A stretch of DNA of 64,000 nt, from NCBI GenBank assembly GCA_015709655.1, contig CP054181.1:547262-611261 (forward strand), written 5' to 3'. A program made the translations under genes and the position numbers. The DNA comes from Ignavibacteria bacterium. Its GTDB lineage: Bacteria > Bacteroidota > Ignavibacteria > Kapaibacteriales > Kapaibacteriaceae. Positions 42,840 to 52,140 of the stretch are shown one piece after another. Within the stretch, counting starts at the first letter, position 1. Each line of letters opens with the position of its first letter. The notes under the pieces were generated by a model, which saw only the letters and a list, made by a program, of their open reading frames with translations, was not told the origin of the DNA and searched no databases.

Positions 42840-43130
42840 AGGGACGCACGGCCGTGCGCTTGGAATAGACGGCCGTAATGTTTTATAATGTTTTTTATGT
42901 TTTTTCGTGCGGGACGGGTTTGAAACCCGCCCCTATGGGTTGTCGTTTTATGATATTTCGTGGTGGGCGACCTCATAGGGGCGACCACGCGGGATCGCCC
43001 CTACGGGTTCGTGCCGATTTTACTATTGTTTTGCGGGAGCGACCACGCGGGATCGCCCCTACGGGTTCGCGCCGATTTTACTATTGTTTTGCGGGAGCGC
43101 GGATATGGCGTCCCTCCAATGATATAATAC
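42840..43130. repeat. Interspersed GC-rich repeat, tandem copies
   Basis: Two adjacent copies of an about 60-bp unit are seen: GCGACCACGCGGGATCGCCC, then CTACGGGTTCG(T/C)GCCGATTT, then TACTATTGTTTTGCGGGA (about 42980-43098). The flanking GGGACGC/GGCGTCCC words are related. A diverged relative lies at 51210-51330. No protein is convincing here. Confidence 0.65.
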
Positions 43131-43507: not shown

Positions 43508-45706
43508 TTATCTCAGCAACATGACGGTTGATATCCAGCCTGATGAGCGATCAACAATCGTATATAAGCCCGTAGGCAGGTTTGTGGAAACCACCCGTGT
43601 TCCCTCTCCCTCAGTGTATTTCATTATCCCAGCCTGAGTTACGTCTTCGCCATTGGTATTGAATACCCTGATGGATTCATCGGGCTTGGGTACGACAACA
43701 TCAAAAGTATTCCAATATGCCTTAGGTGAGGATACCCGGTAGATTGTTTGATCAAACGCAGGTACCGACGTTGCTAAATTATATTGAAGAAAAATAATAT
43801 CGCTAACGTCGGTTAGCCTTAGAGCTATCAGCCTCTTGGCTCTATTCACTGATACCAGGGGATAATGTGCTTCTGGAAAAACCGATATGGCTGAGATTGT
43901 GGATAATGTCGAATCTAGCAGATACAATGTATCTTTGAATAAACAAAGTATAGTATTGTCATCTATGACAAGAGCAGTCTCAAGAGGCCTTGAGAATTGG
44001 CGACTAACTCGGATAGAATTATCTGATCGTCTAAGGATTGATATTATGTCGTCTCTCATCGTATACAATAAAACATCTCCTGAGCCGGGGAATACAAATT
44101 GTTTAATTCTCGAAGAATTCCCACGGGCAAACAATTCACTATATTGTTGTAGGGCCAATGAGTCCATATTCCACACGCCTCCGCGGTTAGTGCCAAGGGC
44201 AATCATTTCATGGGTATTGGGAACATAGTTAATATACACATCCCCACATCCATCACATGTAGTATAGAGAGATCTGGTTGTATCAACAAGATCTTGAAAG
44301 ATAAGTCCGTCATTGTTTACTGAGATAGCCGCATAACGGAGATCCGGCGAGATAGCCTTAACCTTACCTCCCACAAGTTGCGATGGTGAATAAGGTAATG
44401 TAACAACTTTCACGGTCGAATCAGTAGCAAAGTCCACCAAACTAAGTCGCGATAGAGAATCAGTAACTGAAAGTATTGGACTAATATTTGTTTCGTCAGC
44501 ACATATCTGTGCGTCAAATCGCTTGAAGCGCTTCCTTAGCGTCTGGTCCTGTAAAGATAAATGATAATAAGGTTTTCCGAGGGTGCCCATTAATAGTGCT
44601 GTCCCAGACGTATCGTATCTCATGAGATTAGGTATAGGAACTGCGATTACACGGGAACTTCTATCTTTGATATCTAATAGATATGTTACATAATCCGTCG
44701 TACAGCCAATACGGCCATTTCCTAACCATACTACATCGTCAAAATGTACGTGAGGTAAGGTCCATATCCTCTTATAGCGTTCTCCTTCCAGTACATAGAT
44801 ACTAGTGATACTGTCAGAAATAAATTTATTCTCCTTGGTAATGAATTGCCTCACATATGAGATAATAATGGTGTCACCCGTGCTGTTAAACCAATGGCTC
44901 TTCGGCTGTTCTTCAATAAACTCATCAATATTGAAATCAGGAAGTCTTTCTCCGGTTGTTACATCAAACCTGTGAACTTTGGACTTGTAGTTGTCAAGAA
45001 ACAGCAAAACAGGATGGCTAAGGTTGCGGTCAGTAATTCCAATACTGCTACCGTAGGCGTCCAACATTCCTTTGGGCGTTGTAATAACTCGTTCCATTCT
45101 TCGCTCAAATAGGTTGTATATAGTTATCGTGTCATTTTCACACCCTACCACATATTTGCCGTTACCAACAATGTCTATTACACCTTTAATATCTGGTAAT
45201 GACGTAAATCGAACTGGATTGAGTTCTAAAAAACCGAATTCTTCTCCTCGTACAGCAAATATCACGTTACTACCGGGCCTCATCATCGGTCGCGTAAATT
45301 CAGCGGGTAACAACAAATTTGGAGTATCCTTGCCGGGTGTCCAAACTGAAACAACTAGGGATCGTGATGAAGTATCATTGTATCCATGAATAACTACCTC
45401 GCCAGAAGGCAGTATGCCGATTGGCTTACCATGATTACTTGAGTTTTTCAGGCCTGTTTTTACCATACCATGGATTTGAAATGGGTTATCAAGGTCATGT
45501 ACAATGTATAATGGGCCTACACAATTACCCACAAATAACTTACCGTCTGACGAAAACGTAGTACCTGAAGATATAGAGGGAAAAAGCAACACCGCAACCG
45601 AACCAATTGTATCTATGCCACGAGAAAGCAAGTTTTCCGAAGAGCAAAGTATTAACGAGTAAATGATACACAGAATCCGTAAACTGCGTATTCTTGATTG
45701 TTTCAT
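43508..45706 (-). CDS. Secreted beta-propeller protein with T9SS sorting domain
   Basis: 732 residues. The signal peptide is RILCIIYSLILCSSENLLS. The body is a long series of WD40/SMP-30-like repeats without a catalytic motif (for example GSNVIFAVRGEEFGFLELN and NGRIGCTTDYVTYLLDI). The end, DESIRVFNTNGEDVTQAG...NLPTGLYTIVDRSSG then WISTVMLLR, is a T9SS type A sorting domain, predicting cell-surface delivery. Third gene of the minus-strand operon from 51083. The IS256 copy lies between it and its promoter, so expression may depend on the IS. Confidence 0.85.
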   Translation of the reverse strand: MKQSRIRSLRILCIIYSLILCSSENLLSRGIDTIGSVAVLLFPSISSGTTFSSDGKLFVGNCVGPLYIVHDLDNPFQIHGMVKTGLKNSSNHGKPIGILPSGEVVIHGYNDTSSRSLVVSVWTPGKDTPNLLLPAEFTRPMMRPGSNVIFAVRGEEFGFLELNPVRFTSLPDIKGVIDIVGNGKYVVGCENDTITIYNLFERRMERVITTPKGMLDAYGSSIGITDRNLSHPVLLFLDNYKSKVHRFDVTTGERLPDFNIDEFIEEQPKSHWFNSTGDTIIISYVRQFITKENKFISDSITSIYVLEGERYKRIWTLPHVHFDDVVWLGNGRIGCTTDYVTYLLDIKDRSSRVIAVPIPNLMRYDTSGTALLMGTLGKPYYHLSLQDQTLRKRFKRFDAQICADETNISPILSVTDSLSRLSLVDFATDSTVKVVTLPYSPSQLVGGKVKAISPDLRYAAISVNNDGLIFQDLVDTTRSLYTTCDGCGDVYINYVPNTHEMIALGTNRGGVWNMDSLALQQYSELFARGNSSRIKQFVFPGSGDVLLYTMRDDIISILRRSDNSIRVSRQFSRPLETALVIDDNTILCLFKDTLYLLDSTLSTISAISVFPEAHYPLVSVNRAKRLIALRLTDVSDIIFLQYNLATSVPAFDQTIYRVSSPKAYWNTFDVVVPKPDESIRVFNTNGEDVTQAGIMKYTEGEGTRVVSTNLPTGLYTIVDRSSGWISTVMLLR

Positions 45707-45725: not shown

Positions 45726-45809
45726 TTACAGTATAACCGTATGGTATTCCTCGCAGAGGACTGCATCATTAATAAAAGTGATGTACATACACGCCAAGCC
45801 GCGATACTT
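45726..45809 (-). pseudogene. Severed C-terminus of the 206-residue T9SS-type protein
   Basis: Reading minus strand from the target duplication: KYRGLACMYITFINDA then VLCEEYHTVIL and TAA at 45726-45728. It is the missing end of the gene at 47194-47738. Joining the two pieces across one copy of the 8-bp duplication gives 621 nt, exactly 207 codons. Confidence 0.8.
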
Positions 45810-47193
45810 GACAGTGTCCGGAAGTTAGTTGAAAAAAAAGAGGCTCGCTTTGTGGTTGGTAATTTGGAGAAACTAAACAACCAAACACCAAACAAAGGAG
45901 CCCCATGCGATCCAAACATACGCACCCAGATCTTAGTGCGGCAATCGAAACACTAGCGGAGCTGGCAGGCGACGAAGTCGCGGCACTCGTGTTAAATCAT
46001 CTGGAGCTGAGCAGACATGTTGGCGTTCAGCTGATGGAACGGGAGGTGACGCACCTAGCCGGGGAGCGCCATAGCCATGACAAGCCTCACCAGGGCCGGT
46101 ACAGCCGCTGGGGACGTAATCCTGGCAGTCTTGCTGTAGGAGGACAGAAGCTGCCGGTGGCAGTACCCAGGGTGTATGATGCCGAAACCGGGAAGACGTT
46201 TTCGCCACAGATCTACCATGAAATGCGCCAGGCCGCGGAGCCACCGACCTACGTGATCGAGTCGTTGTTTCGTGGACTCGGCAGCCGCAATCTGGAGCTG
46301 GTTACCGAAGCATTGATGGATTCATTTGGACTCTCAAAGAGTCGGGTTTCTGAGCTTTTCGTTGAGCACAGCGCCGCGATCCTGGAAGAGTTTCTTCAGC
46401 GTCGCCTTGACGAGTCAACCTATGTGGCTGTCTTCATCGACGGAAAGTGCATACAGGGTCAGAACATCGTCTCGGTTATTGGCGTAACTGAAGCCGGGGA
46501 GAAGTATACGCTGGGGCTAACCCAATGTACGACAGAGAACGCCGGTGTGATCACGACGATGTTTCGCGAGATGATCAGCCGTGGTTTCTGCTTCGATGAC
46601 GGCCTGTTGTTTGTGATCGACGGCGGGCTAGGCCTTCGAAAGGCGATCGAAGAGGTCTTTGGCGAATATGCCGTCATTCAGCGCTGCCAAGTGCACAAGT
46701 TGCGCAATGTGCTTGACCACTTGCCGGAGAACGCACGTCCAGAATGGCGCAAACTTCTGAAGCAATTGTTCTCCTGCGATGACTACAAACACGCACGCAC
46801 TATGGCTGATGAACTCATAGCACGATTGCAGAAGATCAATCCCGCCGCTGCTGCATCACTCAAGGAGGGCATCGAAGACGTACTGACCCTGACAAGACTC
46901 GGCTTACGATCTGTGTTCGGCCGTTCGTTCGGCACGACAAATGTGATCGAGTCGGCGAACTCTGCCATAGCACGTCGTACGAGGCATGTTACGCGATGGT
47001 CCACAGGTGATCAGCGGCTACGGTGGTCAGCACTAGCTCTTCTTGATGCCGAACAATCATGGCGGCGAGTGCACAACTATAAACGATTGCCTATTTTGCA
47101 ACGGGCGATCAAAGACGAGGTCAACAATAGAATCCAGTCCAATCAGCCCAAAGCCAAAGTCTCTAGATTTTCAACTAAGAAACGGACATAGTC
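45810..47193 (+). mobile_element. IS256-family insertion sequence, intact, with 8-bp target duplication
   Basis: 1384 bp. The ends GACAGTGTCCGGAAGTTAGT and, on the opposite strand, GACTATGTCCGTTTCTTAGT are imperfect inverted repeats. Flanking CGATACTT occurs at both 45802-45809 and 47194-47201, an 8-bp duplication typical of the family. Transposase is complete, so this copy looks recent and potentially active. Confidence 0.92.
45905..47191 (+). CDS. IS256/mutator-family transposase
   Basis: 428 residues. The DDE motifs are VAVFIDGKCIQGQNIV (first Asp), LFVIDGGLGLRKAIEEVF (second Asp) and GTTNVIESANSAIARRT (Glu). CQVHKLRNVLDHLP is the conserved C-x2-H region. An RBS-like AAAGGAG lies 7 nt upstream. 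The stop codon lies inside the right inverted repeat. It is full length, unlike the remnant at 31032. Confidence 0.94.
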   Translation: MRSKHTHPDLSAAIETLAELAGDEVAALVLNHLELSRHVGVQLMEREVTHLAGERHSHDKPHQGRYSRWGRNPGSLAVGGQKLPVAVPRVYDAETGKTFSPQIYHEMRQAAEPPTYVIESLFRGLGSRNLELVTEALMDSFGLSKSRVSELFVEHSAAILEEFLQRRLDESTYVAVFIDGKCIQGQNIVSVIGVTEAGEKYTLGLTQCTTENAGVITTMFREMISRGFCFDDGLLFVIDGGLGLRKAIEEVFGEYAVIQRCQVHKLRNVLDHLPENARPEWRKLLKQLFSCDDYKHARTMADELIARLQKINPAAAASLKEGIEDVLTLTRLGLRSVFGRSFGTTNVIESANSAIARRTRHVTRWSTGDQRLRWSALALLDAEQSWRRVHNYKRLPILQRAIKDEVNNRIQSNQPKAKVSRFSTKKRT

Positions 47194-47738
47194 CGATACT
47201 TCCCGCTATTAACTAACTGAAGCATTTTTTCTGTTGAGTTAGTATTGCAAATCAGTTTCCCACGCACATCGTAAAGAGATATCCCTCTAATGTTTAGTCT
47301 CGATATTCTGGTGTTCAAGATGTTAGCGAATGATAGATTTAACTTATGATCTAAGAACATCTGTACAGAATCCTGCCTTTTCGATGCTCTGGAGACGATA
47401 CTAAAATATGCCGGTGATGACATCACGGTCCTACGCGACTGTGATTCTACTATACTGAGCCGATAATACTTACCTTGCAGTGAGCCCACACTCCATATAA
47501 ATTGCTGAACACTGGGCTGCAGTCTCACTAAATGTGTCCAGTACCCTTCTGAACCATTCCAAAGCATTACATCATACGATATCGCGGGTTCCAGCTTCAA
47601 ATCTTTAAACGTCACGACTGAGTTAGATACAATAATGTCAGATCCGCTCGGCAAAGAGTGTAGTGTCAATGGCTCATTCACCTGAGCATGAAGTTGCATT
47701 GCGACAGTCATGCACAGAACTAATACTATGATTTTCAT
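47194..47738 (-). pseudogene. T9SS-type secreted protein split by IS256
   Basis: ATG 47738 opens a signal peptide (IIVLVLCMTVAMQLHAQ). The rest is an immunoglobulin-like beta domain and the start of a sorting domain (RLNIRGISLYDVRGKLICN). The frame runs into the IS after GKYR, replacing the final 25 residues with RTMSVS. The original end lies at 45726-45809. Losing the tail should abolish T9SS export and anchoring. Its start overlaps the end of the large surface-protein gene by 4 bp. Confidence 0.85.
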
Positions 47739-50700
47739 CGTGGCTCCAACAAAACTGAATATGTAATTCGAATGTTGTTATTTTCAATAATGTGCTGCAA
47801 GGATTTGAACGGATCGAAATTTTCTTTTTCTCCAGATTTTTTGTCTCTAGGCTTCACACCCGTAAAGATGTTTCTATAATACGTTATTTCGTTTTTGGGC
47901 GTCAACTGCCCCATTACATCAGGCTCACCAGCATTAGTAAGAAGGTCTGCGTAGAAAGCTGAAACTGCTCCTAGTGCGTAAGTGATATAACCTTTATAAT
48001 CATCTGCAGAATCAATCTTTACTTGAGTCGCCAGAGTATCAGCCACTTTGCCAAAGTATGATGCTAAGTTGTCGTAGGAATAATCAATATCCAATACAAT
48101 AAAGTGTAGAAAAAGGTAACCATTATTAGCCAGAGGAGAGTATCCTCCTGCCTTGCTAATCAATTTACTGGGATACTGCGGATCTCCTTCGCCCATGCCG
48201 GAGTATTCACCTAACGTATCAGGTTCTACGGCATCAGAGAAATTAACTCCATGCTTTGATTCAGAATTCATTGAAGTTATGGCGATAACCAAGACATCCG
48301 GGTCGTTCGCACCAAATAACCACCAAAATGCATCCCAATCGTTATCTTTTAGAACTTCAATTTTGTCTACACGAACACTAACGGTAGGCGGTGCAATTTC
48401 GACGGTTGTGTGCGATGGATTGAGTAGGAGGGCGTCGCTAGTTGACCTTATTACTTCATCCCAATAAACCGATAGTTGCCCAGAACACCACGCATTCATG
48501 CCGTCACTGGCCCTACACTGAATTTTAATTTTCCTCGGTGTATCATTCATTAAAATGTAATAGTGTCTGGTGTCGTTATAGTCATTCCGAATTTGATCAT
48601 ATGCCCTAAGTCCCTGCCCACTATTCGAAGCATCTGCAGTCGACAGCTTCACAGGTTTATTAAATTCAACGATGGGATATACCGTTAAATTATAGCCAGA
48701 TTGTTCGAATTCAATTAGTGCTTTTGCAAGATTCTGTTCATCACTTATGTTTCCTTTTTCATCTATATCAAAGGAATACAAGCTGGCACCTCCGAGAGGT
48801 GTGGAATCGTTAGGATCACGGGTTTTAATCCATAATTTGATCGCATAGAATCCATCTTCATCGATAAGTAGCTTCACGATCCTGTCTTCATCCATGGTAA
48901 ACCGTATTATCTTTTTCGGAGCATCAATAACGGCCCCATACGTATACCCCGGATCATTGGACCAGCCAACAATCGCTTTACCTGCGTTTCGCTTTCCACT
49001 TTTGTCAATCACAGGCGTCAGGGTAACCACCTCATTGCAGGCATATTCAACAATGTTGTCCCAAAAGTCAAATTCATTCTGAACCGCAGTACCCTTCCAT
49101 CCTATCTTACCTGATGGTCGTCTGTACTCTTTTCCTTGACCGTTCCTAAGAATATCAATAGAGCTCCAATCAATTTTAGTTCCATCTAATCCTTCGATTT
49201 CCAACGTTAGTTTGTAGGTTTTATGTCGGAGTGTGACGTAAAATCGCTTGATGCAGGGGTCGCCGGTTACGCTAACAAGTTTCGACCAGGTAGCACCAAC
49301 AGGAGGACCGTCCGGATCGTCTGTACCTGCAATCAACACACCGTTCTCTCTTACAGTTTTTATTTCGTAGCATGTATTTGTTACGTTTACCCCAACAAGA
49401 AAATCAACAATGGGCATCATGCTGTTATAGGTTCCTACAGCATGATATGGCCCCACTGGAACTATTGCAACACCAACTCCGGTTGATACAGTAACTGGCT
49501 GTACCGGTACACGTGGTTCGTGTGCATTATGTGCGTAACCATCAACATTCAGTTCGATGGTGTAAGGAGGACAAACCGTAGGAGTAGGTGTTGGTATAAA
49601 GCCACCGCCTATTGATACGTTGTAGTTAGGGCCATCATATCTTCCAATAGGCACATATCGAATAACAGGATTTGTACTTCCATTTATTAACGGGATACTG
49701 GGTACCGTCCATGCACCGAAAGCATGTGGGCTATCAGCGGATGCCGTTAGTAACAAGCTTTCATTTGGCTGGCACCAAACGGTATACTTACCAGATCCCA
49801 GTGAATCTGCATAACCGGCAACCGAAATAGAACCCCACGACGAGCCGGAAACAGTAAGCTCAATAGTATCCTTTTTCACCTGGCGATAAACGGCGCGTAC
49901 GTCAAGCCTAACTATTGTTGAACATGTGTACACCTTGGAAAACGAGGGTGTTGTAATAGCTTCGATAGACGGATCGCTGGGACATAGCCAGTGTGAAAAA
50001 TACAAGTGATCAATAAACTTGGGGACGCTTACCTGTATCGTGTCCCCCGGCATGACCGTCCTAGCAACTTGACCAGATGCGTATTTATATGTTTCAGGGC
50101 GAAAAACAGTACTGTCAGGCCCTTGCAGTGTTACGAACAAGGCTCCGTGCCCGTAGTGGCGTACAAAATATTGAGCTGTATCACCGTCAGTTCCAGTGAA
50201 AATGCGATGATTAGATTGGATAAAATAGCCCTCACCGTCAATAATCGAATCGGTAGGAATATATACGGTAAGGCTGTCAGCACTAATACTCGGTGTAATT
50301 TCTACCGTATCATACGAAATCGAACAGATTGCGGAATCTATTGTTGTAACTGTACCTTGCCGCAGTAGATATATCAGGTCGCCGGAACCATTACTTAATG
50401 CCGGTATCTTTCGGTTATATGTAATCTTCACCGTGTCTCCACAACGTACCAACCCGTTACTAAACCCATAATCCACATCTACAATGGTGTGTGGGGCAAG
50501 TTCTGTGGTGAAGGATGTTACACTTTGAGTTATGGCGACTGTATCGTATTCACCGGCTTCTGAATCCCAAACGAGAACTCTTGCGTCGTCAACAATAACT
50601 TTATACTCTGTGTTAAATCTGAGTTGGTCAGGATCAATTGTAAACGTGAGTGTTGTGTCATCAACAATCGTAGAATGACCGTGCAGGGATAGACGCCGGA

Positions 50701-51083
50701 TCGCGGAGATATCATCTGAAATATGGTTGTACTCATCAGTTGAAAGAACATACATACATGGCATCGTATCAACATACTCGATGTTAAGTGAATCAAGCAA
50801 ATGATTCATCATGGTTGTATCGTAGCCGTAGGCCCTGCTGTGCTGTAATACTGAGGACTCGTCAACCTTGTGACTTAGAATGATGGTAACGGTTGACAAC
50901 GATTTCGCCACGTTGGTACTACCATTTGCTGGTGTTACCTTGGTAACAGTATGTGCGGAAAAAGTAGTTACCGCTGCTACAAGGAAAAACGCTACTAGTG
51001 TGCGTAGTGCGTAGTGCGTAGTGCGTAGTGCGTAGTGCGTAGTGCGTAGTGCGTAGTGCGTAGTGCGTAGTGCGTAGTTTCAT
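47735..51083 (-). CDS. Large surface protein, probably phase-variable (currently out of frame)
   Basis: A 1058-codon frame is open from 50911 down, but its natural start is upstream. ATG at 51083-51081 sits 3 nt after GGGGAGGT and is followed by Lys, eleven 7-bp repeats, and a hydrophobic signal peptide (LVAFFLVAAVTTFSA) that lies in the long frame. With 11 repeats the ATG frame is off by one base; 10 or 13 repeats would join them. The mature protein begins with a bacterial Ig-like domain (VTPANGSTNVAKSLSTVTI, HKVDESS). It then has InlB/BACON-like beta repeats with DGYAHNAHEP and EGLDGTKIDW. No T9SS tail was recognised; the operon partners have one. Confidence 0.75.
51001..51077. repeat. Heptanucleotide tandem repeat (TGCGTAG x 11)
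   Basis: Eleven perfect TGCGTAG units (CTACGCA on the coding strand) lie directly after the second codon of the surface-protein start. Because 7 is not a multiple of 3, each gain or loss of a unit changes the frame. None of the three frames of the repeat contains a stop (peptide LRTTHYA). Confidence 0.95.
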
Positions 51084-51369
51084 AGCACCTCCCCAATGTT
51101 TATAGAATAAATACAAACACTCTTAGCGGCAATATAACCAAATGTTTATATGAAAGCAAGTACCGCGTTAAATAAAATATATTTTGTCGAAATTGTATGG
51201 CTGCAGCATTGGGGGGCAACCACGCGGGGTTGGCCATATGGGTTCGTGTCGATCTTACTATTGTTTCGTTCGGGCGACCACGCGGGGTCACCTCTACCGT
51301 TGTGTGTTTTTTTATGGTGTTTCGTGGCGGGCGGCCACAAACGCAGCCACCGGTCGGGGTGAGGCCGTG
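51084..51369. other. Intergenic with promoter of surface operon and interspersed repeat
   Basis: The first 80 bp (51085-51165) are AT-rich and upstream of the surface-protein start, so they should hold its promoter; I cannot place -10/-35 boxes. From about 51210 a diverged copy of the GC-rich repeat at 42980 is seen (GGCGACCACGCGGGGTCACC, GTTCGTGTCGATCTTACTA). No gene. Confidence 0.5.
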
Positions 51370-52140
51370 CTACGGATTCACAATTATCCCTACCGGGCAG
51401 TGGTCGCTGCCCATGACTTCCTGTGAGATATATGCGTTTTTTAGTGATGGCCTGAGGTTGGAAGTGATCCAGTGATAGTCTATTCGCCAGCCAACGTTGC
51501 GCTCACGGGCTCTGGTGACCTGGTCCCAGTATGTGTACTCATCGGTGGTATCGGGATAAAACTCTCGGAAGGTGTCTAACCATCCGTCAGCAACGAGTTC
51601 ATCGAGCTTCACGCGTTCCTCAGGAAGGAATCCGGTGGTTTTTTCGTTTTCCTTTGGACGTGCCAGGTCAATTGGTTTATGGGCGGTGTTGTAGTCTCCG
51701 CACACAATGATACGCTTGCCTTCGGCTCTCTGCTTCCTGCATCGTTCAAATAAGTGATCATAAAATTCGAGCTTATAGGGTACGCGCATGTTACCACGAC
51801 TGCCATTGGGGAAATACACTCCGTACAGAGTAAACGCACCGTAGTCAAGTTCAAGTATCCTGCCTTCGTTGTCAATATCCTCCACACCAATCTTGGTGTT
51901 TACATTGTCGGGTTGTATCCGTGATAAGATGCCAACACCACTATATCCTTTTTTACGTTCGCACGGATGCCAGAACGTGTGGTAGCCCTCCATCTCAAGC
52001 AACTGCTGAGGTATGGTATCGAAGTCTGCCTTTATTTCCTGCAAGCATACAATATCCGGCTTATCCTGCTCTAACCACTCTAAAAACCCCTTCTTTAAGG
52101 CGGCGCGAATTCCGTTAATATTCCAGGATACGATTTTCAT
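51370..52140 (-). CDS. xth: Exodeoxyribonuclease III (AP endonuclease)
   Basis: 256 residues, family length. Motifs are MKIVSWNINGIRAAL, DIVCLQEIKAD (metal-binding Glu), YGVYFPNGS, VCGDYNTAHKPIDL (catalytic Asp and Asn), WRIDYHW and GSDHCPVGI (catalytic His). It repairs abasic sites and trims 3' ends in base excision repair. It lies 28 bp after pyrE on the same strand. Confidence 0.96.
   Translation of the reverse strand: MKIVSWNINGIRAALKKGFLEWLEQDKPDIVCLQEIKADFDTIPQQLLEMEGYHTFWHPCERKKGYSGVGILSRIQPDNVNTKIGVEDIDNEGRILELDYGAFTLYGVYFPNGSRGNMRVPYKLEFYDHLFERCRKQRAEGKRIIVCGDYNTAHKPIDLARPKENEKTTGFLPEERVKLDELVADGWLDTFREFYPDTTDEYTYWDQVTRARERNVGWRIDYHWITSNLRPSLKNAYISQEVMGSDHCPVGIIVNP

Follow-up and report, generated by a model that had tools for sequence, protein, structure and literature searches.

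A heptanucleotide repeat between start codon and signal peptide that likely switches a large predicted secreted protein on and off

Results

The heptamer tract and the genes around it

The window is the whole 64,000-nucleotide stretch of DNA that was analysed here. The features discussed below are all within it, and their coordinates are those of the window:

51081..51083, minus strand: start codon ATG, preceded by the ribosome-site-like GGGGAGGTGCT
51001..51077, minus strand: tract of 11 perfect CTACGCA copies, every three units encoding LRTTHYA
50954..50998, minus strand: hydrophobic core and cleavage-like end of a signal peptide, LVAFFLVAAVTTFSA, in the long frame (judged by eye)
47735..50998, minus strand: long frame, 1087 codons, encoding P0001, a predicted secreted protein with a Big_5 Ig-like domain at residues 15-53
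50919..51083, minus strand: short out-of-frame product from ATG 51083 at 11 copies, 54 aa plus stop
47175..47738, minus strand: next gene, 187 aa, with a signal-peptide-like start and a T9SS sorting-domain match below cut-off
45905..47191, plus strand: Mutator-family (Transposase_mut) transposase of the downstream IS
43508..45706, minus strand: 732-aa gene beyond the IS, with a T9SS sorting-tail match below cut-off (E 0.099)

On the minus strand, ATG 51083 is followed by the codon AAA and then by 11 x 7 bases of CTACGCA, which places a pure non-triplet repeat, as expected of a contingency locus, near the 5' end of a coding frame. The initial annotation had reported this start codon with its ribosome site, the lysine codon and the 11 copies, and each of them was found where it had been placed. 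TRF called the tract at 51000-51078, with 11.3 copies and a 100% match. Two bases separate the end of the tract from the opening of the long frame at 50998, which begins CTAGTAGCGTTTTTCC... and is translated into the signal-peptide-like LVAFFLVAAVTTFSA; the upstream limit of this frame is a TGA overlapping ATG 51083. At 11 copies the frame of ATG 51083 reaches a stop after 54 codons, and the signal-peptide-like segment does open a different, 1087-codon frame, as had been claimed.

When copy numbers from 0 to 15 were modelled, the ATG and the long frame were joined only at 1, 4, 7, 10 and 13 copies. This agrees with the earlier reckoning that 11 copies are out of frame and that 10 or 13 would restore one continuous protein of about 1110 residues, as the modelled 10-copy product has 26 + 1087 = 1113 aa. 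The first ATG, GTG or TTG start listed in the long frame itself is GTG 50911, which is located past the signal peptide. Ribosomal frameshifting as a way to join the two frames was rejected, as no slippery site was found by eye.

A chance origin of the tract was ruled out: the longest period-7 run in the window has 72 matches, and none of 30 first-order Markov surrogates exceeded 10. Three exact CTACGCA units in tandem occur at only one site in the 2.84 Mb single-contig genome, the tract at 51001-51077, and the same pattern was absent from 122 other genomes of the order (1/123, the one being the own genome) and from all but the own genome among 395 genomes of the phylum. The lineage was judged from a neighbouring gene (51370-52140): among the 80 of 314 matches listed, 12 named loci have at least 67% identity, of which six bear the name Candidatus Kapaibacterium, three Ignavibacteria, one Bacteroidetes and one 'bacterium'; the highest (79%) is labelled Bradyrhizobiaceae and was taken to be a mislabelled MAG. 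The genome is thus likely one of the uncultured Kapabacteria. With a single copy, the gene start would read as MKLRTLVAFFLVAAVTTFSA, a normal signal peptide, and the heptamer therefore probably arose from the gene's own sequence. Three weak matches came out of a promoter scan, one of them on the strand of the long-frame gene. Also near the heptamer locus, at window positions 42981-43099 and 51180-51300, are a 58-base unit repeated 2.1 times, of the GCGACCACGCGGGATCGCCCC... type, and GC-rich pieces resembling it.

The predicted secreted protein and the genes downstream

Protein searches with the long frame, in which 7995 candidates sharing most words were scored, gave two proteins, P0002 and P0003. 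The latter, 1099 aa in length and encoded on a 7,913-bp contig, shows 52% identity to the long-frame protein over 1086 columns, nearly the whole length, and its N-terminus is an ordinary signal peptide without repeat. In a genome search, P0001 had a match in 10 of 60 genomes, the own genome included; the homologue in the best relative, genome G030, is 27% identical, and P0001 was without a match in the five same-genus genomes searched. Scans of genomic and viral contig collections for P0001 or its start found no relative in these collections, which may lack the own genome or those closest to it.

The Big_5 Ig-like domain (1.4e-6) is the sole Pfam match on P0001. No NCBIfam match was found on it up to E 0.1, and so no C-terminal T9SS sorting domain, while the sorting tail TIGR04183 has 112 matches at E <= 0.001 in the own 2.84 Mb genome, some of them below the curated cut-off. 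The long-frame protein is predicted to be exported, by Sec, and a surface location is suggested by the signal peptide together with the Ig-like domain. The earlier designation as a surface protein leans on these two features, as no sorting domain was found on P0001. The AlphaFold2 model of the protein is poor (mean pLDDT 56.8, pTM 0.32), and none of the Foldseek matches listed for it, Ig-like and S-layer chains included, exceeds a TM-score of 0.13 when normalised by query length; for these reasons, no function was drawn from them.

The ATG of the 187-aa gene overlaps the stop of the long frame (ATGA), and an OFF state of the latter would thus likely reduce translation of the former. This gene is interrupted near its 3' end by the IS, which extends over window positions of about 45802-47201 and is flanked on both sides by AAGTATCG, a target duplication.

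Copy-number variation

To find other alleles, the 54-residue OFF peptide was compared with about 5.8 billion clustered proteins, giving 118 candidates and 5 matches. The best match, P0004, is a protein of 61 aa with 2 member sequences, from one contig of 218,704 bp. This peptide, taken from a protein collection, is identical letter for letter to the modelled 14-copy product, and tract lengths of 11 and 14 therefore very likely both exist in assemblies. Repeat number thus very likely differs between isolates, as at a contingency locus (11 in the window; 14 deduced from the P0004 peptide). A copy number fixed everywhere, which the initial annotation had named as a ground for refutation, has so far not been met with, given this public contig encoding the exact 14-copy product.

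The two alleles seen, 11 and 14, share the same OFF frame, and no in-frame allele of the heptamer locus is among them; only the paralogous (CT)n cassettes described below, taken together, include both ON and OFF states. The search with the OFF peptide could reveal out-of-frame alleles only, because in-frame products would join the P0002 cluster. This cluster has 6 members on 7 contigs, and its representative is a 1058-aa protein that starts at GTG 50911; if cluster representatives are the longest members, then no P0002 member was ON.

LRTTHYA-like peptide repeats are also found in the unrelated small proteins P0005-P0008, one of which is from Pandoraea, and it seems that this heptamer, or one like it, arises time and again in distant bacteria.

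The same anatomy in paralogues and relatives

The homologue of P0001 in G030 (locus L011) carries a 14-mer x7.4 after its own ATG, followed by KFLLLLLCSIFFMSRPSALMA in a 1098-codon frame, with which this ATG is out of frame. The P0001 gene and its homologue therefore have unrelated non-triplet repeats at the same point, suggesting that selection acts on the switch and not on the sequence. The other homologous loci read beside L011 had no such array. Two more G030 loci are an in-frame 7-mer x7 and a G10 tract for which ATGs are present in two frames.

In the own genome, three paralogous two-gene cassettes begin with ATGAA(CT)n followed by a signal-peptide-like segment. They were found by a 400-kb sample and then by pattern searches:

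G000:C1 851169-851195 (L107): (CT)11 cassette, in frame
G000:C1 473692-473722 (L192): (CT)13 cassette, out of frame
G000:C1 2262515-2262555 (L188): (CT)18 cassette, out of frame

Downstream of each (CT)n gene is a second gene, about 800 codons long; two of these second genes correspond to T9SS tail matches, of which one scores above the cut-off and the other below it. The (CT)11 and (CT)13 genes encode proteins that are 92% identical, and the 30 bases before the tract are the same in both while the copy numbers differ. The dN/dS of these two gene bodies is 0.53 at a dS of 0.091, a mild constraint that is not decisive. In G009, no array was present in two other homologues of the (CT)n genes.

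Genome G006, of the same family and another genus, has T10(CT)7, (CT)8.5, (TC)9 and 8-mer x4.8 loci. None of these four has a listed in-frame start within 60 bases upstream, and T10(CT)7 and (CT)8.5 were taken to start at GTG; an 8-mer x3.6 locus of the same genome is without a clear start. Altogether, 13 loci were compared and three of them set aside: the 8-mer x3.6, the G10 tract and an A10 tract in a lipoprotein-like start. Two of the remaining ten, all with a usable start, are in frame, which is near the one third expected of free slippage.

Repeats of other placement were also seen. Tracts on the promoter side of genes with signal-peptide-like starts are (TG)9.5 and C11 in the own genome, G11 in G003 and (AC)13.5 in G006. 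The own-genome pair (L116:5629-5647 and L116:15431-15441, respectively) is ~50 to 70 bases upstream of start codons, and these two tracts are possible promoter-spacing switches. Relatives also have heptanucleotide arrays away from signal-peptide starts, such as AGGTTCA x13; these are at L210:16324-16513 (G003) and at L197 and L198 (G006). A C12 tract (L122, G000:C1:542710-542721) adjoins a fragment resembling by eye the end of a DsbA-type thiol oxidoreductase.

Frequency of the start-repeat-hydrophobic arrangement

Arrays were screened by a single automatic rule for start-repeat-hydrophobic arrangements, which also catches promoter-side and homopolymer cases and which missed two of the listed G006 loci. 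The own genome was sampled over 780 kb, where 2 of 14 arrays fit the rule, one of the two being already known when the stretch was taken. Four of 14 arrays fit in the chosen contigs of G006 (100 kb), two of the four being one locus, and 2 of 12 in its unchosen contigs (109 kb), namely one promoter-side repeat and one case that is hardly a signal peptide. The count was 3 of 6 for G030 without its chosen contig (315 kb; two are 10-base homopolymers), 0 of 7 for G003 of the same genus (326 kb), 0 of 8 for ten named Kapabacteria/Ignavibacteria-type loci (L022-L031, 113 kb) and 1 of 11 for other named loci (755 kb). A coarser test marked 4.9% of bases as close to the start of an export signal, and 2 of 14 own-genome arrays fell within them; as its rule called 243 of 605 frames and misses out-of-frame genes by design, this is a rough base rate only.

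The array counts are too small, and an enrichment at the start/signal-peptide position over other positions is therefore not proven. The weight of any generalisation rests instead on the (CT)n paralogues and on the homologue with another repeat.

Discussion

Slipped-strand gain and loss of CTACGCA units likely switches the predicted secreted protein, with copy numbers of 1 mod 3 being ON, and the assembly is predicted to be OFF. What is observed here is the tract with its frame arithmetic, a long frame that is intact and has a 52% homologue, and a public 14-copy peptide; slippage as the cause and an ON state at 10 or 13 copies are what we infer from these data. The initial interpretation as a slipped-strand contingency locus has gained support from the public 14-copy product and from the same anatomy, with other repeats, in paralogous and homologous genes. 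In the proposed mechanism, slipped-strand mispairing would add or remove CTACGCA units between the start codon and the signal peptide. At copy numbers of 1 mod 3 (10, 13), the ATG would be joined to the long frame and the gene would be ON; at 11 copies, ribosomes would stop after 54 codons, and the 187-aa gene with the ATGA overlap would likely be translated less. The genome encodes MutS; loops of seven bases are poorly recognised by mismatch repair.

Several other explanations need to be weighed against such a switch. The locus might be a recent pseudogene, in which expansion of the heptamer broke the frame, the protein is no longer made and the repeat length drifts without function. Both alleles seen being OFF would be consistent with this notion, and decay of the locus is possible because this patchy gene has no match in the five same-genus genomes and its 187-aa neighbour is cut by the IS. 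However, the 1087-codon frame is intact and aligns nearly end to end with P0003, and the anatomy recurs with different units in other genes, 2/10 of them in frame; we therefore consider a pseudogene unlikely. There is a similarly small chance that the count of 11 is an assembly error, with the true dominant count being in frame (10 or 13) and the tract variable or not. Tandem repeats are error-prone in assembly, and the 11-copy count comes from one genome of the species, but the product found in another public assembly is a clean 14-copy one, and it is out of frame too.

The tract could also be a short tandem repeat of the intergenic type which has no coding role and came to lie in the gene by chance, given that LRTTHYA-like peptides occur in unrelated proteins (P0005-P0008) and that 7-mer arrays outside gene starts occur in G006 and G003. 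This is quite improbable, as a CTACGCA array exists only here in the genome and in only one of 395 genomes of the phylum, and as unrelated repeats occupy the same site, after the start codon and before the signal peptide. Finally, translation might begin at GTG 50911, yielding a cytoplasmic protein with the repeat merely upstream of the real gene. The gene-caller product P0002, 1058 aa, is present in the protein collection, but such a start would strip off the signal-peptide-like segment, while the homologue P0003 has a signal peptide, and GTG 50911 is preceded at best by a weak GGTAG compared to GGGGAGG before ATG 51083. An alternative start already reading the long frame had been named at the outset as grounds for giving up the switch; the first start listed in that frame is this GTG, which would drop the signal peptide, and we regard its use as the true start as very improbable.

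Returning to the switch, the heptamer locus likely belongs to a group of contingency loci that this lineage carries, together with the three (CT)n cassettes in the own genome and the 2-, 7-, 8- and 14-base repeats placed alike in relatives. A broader proposal, which may just as well prove wrong as right, is that Kapabacteria run a phase-variable secretome, in which the first genes of export cassettes would carry quickly evolving, interchangeable 2-, 7-, 8- or 14-base repeats at a fixed site between start codon and signal peptide. Each cell would then produce a random subset of large secreted proteins, plausibly as a protection against phages or grazers.

Comparison with known phase-variable systems

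Opa is a beta-barrel. In Pfam, P0001 gives only Big_5, and neither homology to Opa nor a CTCTT unit is found at the heptamer locus. The opa genes of Neisseria carry CTCTT pentamers in the leader-peptide region (PMC3960869). The heptamer locus is alike in having a non-triplet tandem repeat in the leader-peptide coding region of an exported protein, with the unit number setting the frame, and several paralogues per genome recall the (CT)n cassettes described here. It differs in its 7-base unit, CTACGCA, in the large Ig-like protein and in the organism, which is likely of Kapabacteria, and switching is here predicted.

NeuO is a capsule O-acetyltransferase, and its repeat is not known to lie before a signal peptide. 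P0001 is not such an O-acetyltransferase with AAGACTC repeats; the two loci share a heptanucleotide tract in the 5' coding region, with full-length translation at one residue class mod 3, whereas the unit sequences differ (AAGACTC and CTACGCA). The neuO gene of E. coli K1 resides on phage CUS-3, and a survey gives 3 to 53 AAGACTC copies in 64 genomes, 42 of which are OFF (PMC13001214). Most of the loci here are OFF as well.

Heptamers of the Haemophilus influenzae adhesins lie in the promoter and alter transcription, whereas the repeats here are within the coding frame; in both cases a heptamer array controls, or here would control, a large protein, the Haemophilus one being an adhesin. Heptamers of the high-molecular-weight adhesins are named in PMC5953494.

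Our literature search found no paper joining Kapabacteria and phase variation. Phase variation is described as characteristic of surface genes in bacterial pathogens with small genomes (PMC11475388). The mechanism proposed here is of a known kind, that of opa and neuO; what is new is the lineage, likely Kapabacteria, and the occurrence of different repeats at one position. If such a set of contingency loci indeed exists in this lineage, which is known from environmental MAGs, random surface switching would occur outside small-genome pathogens as well.
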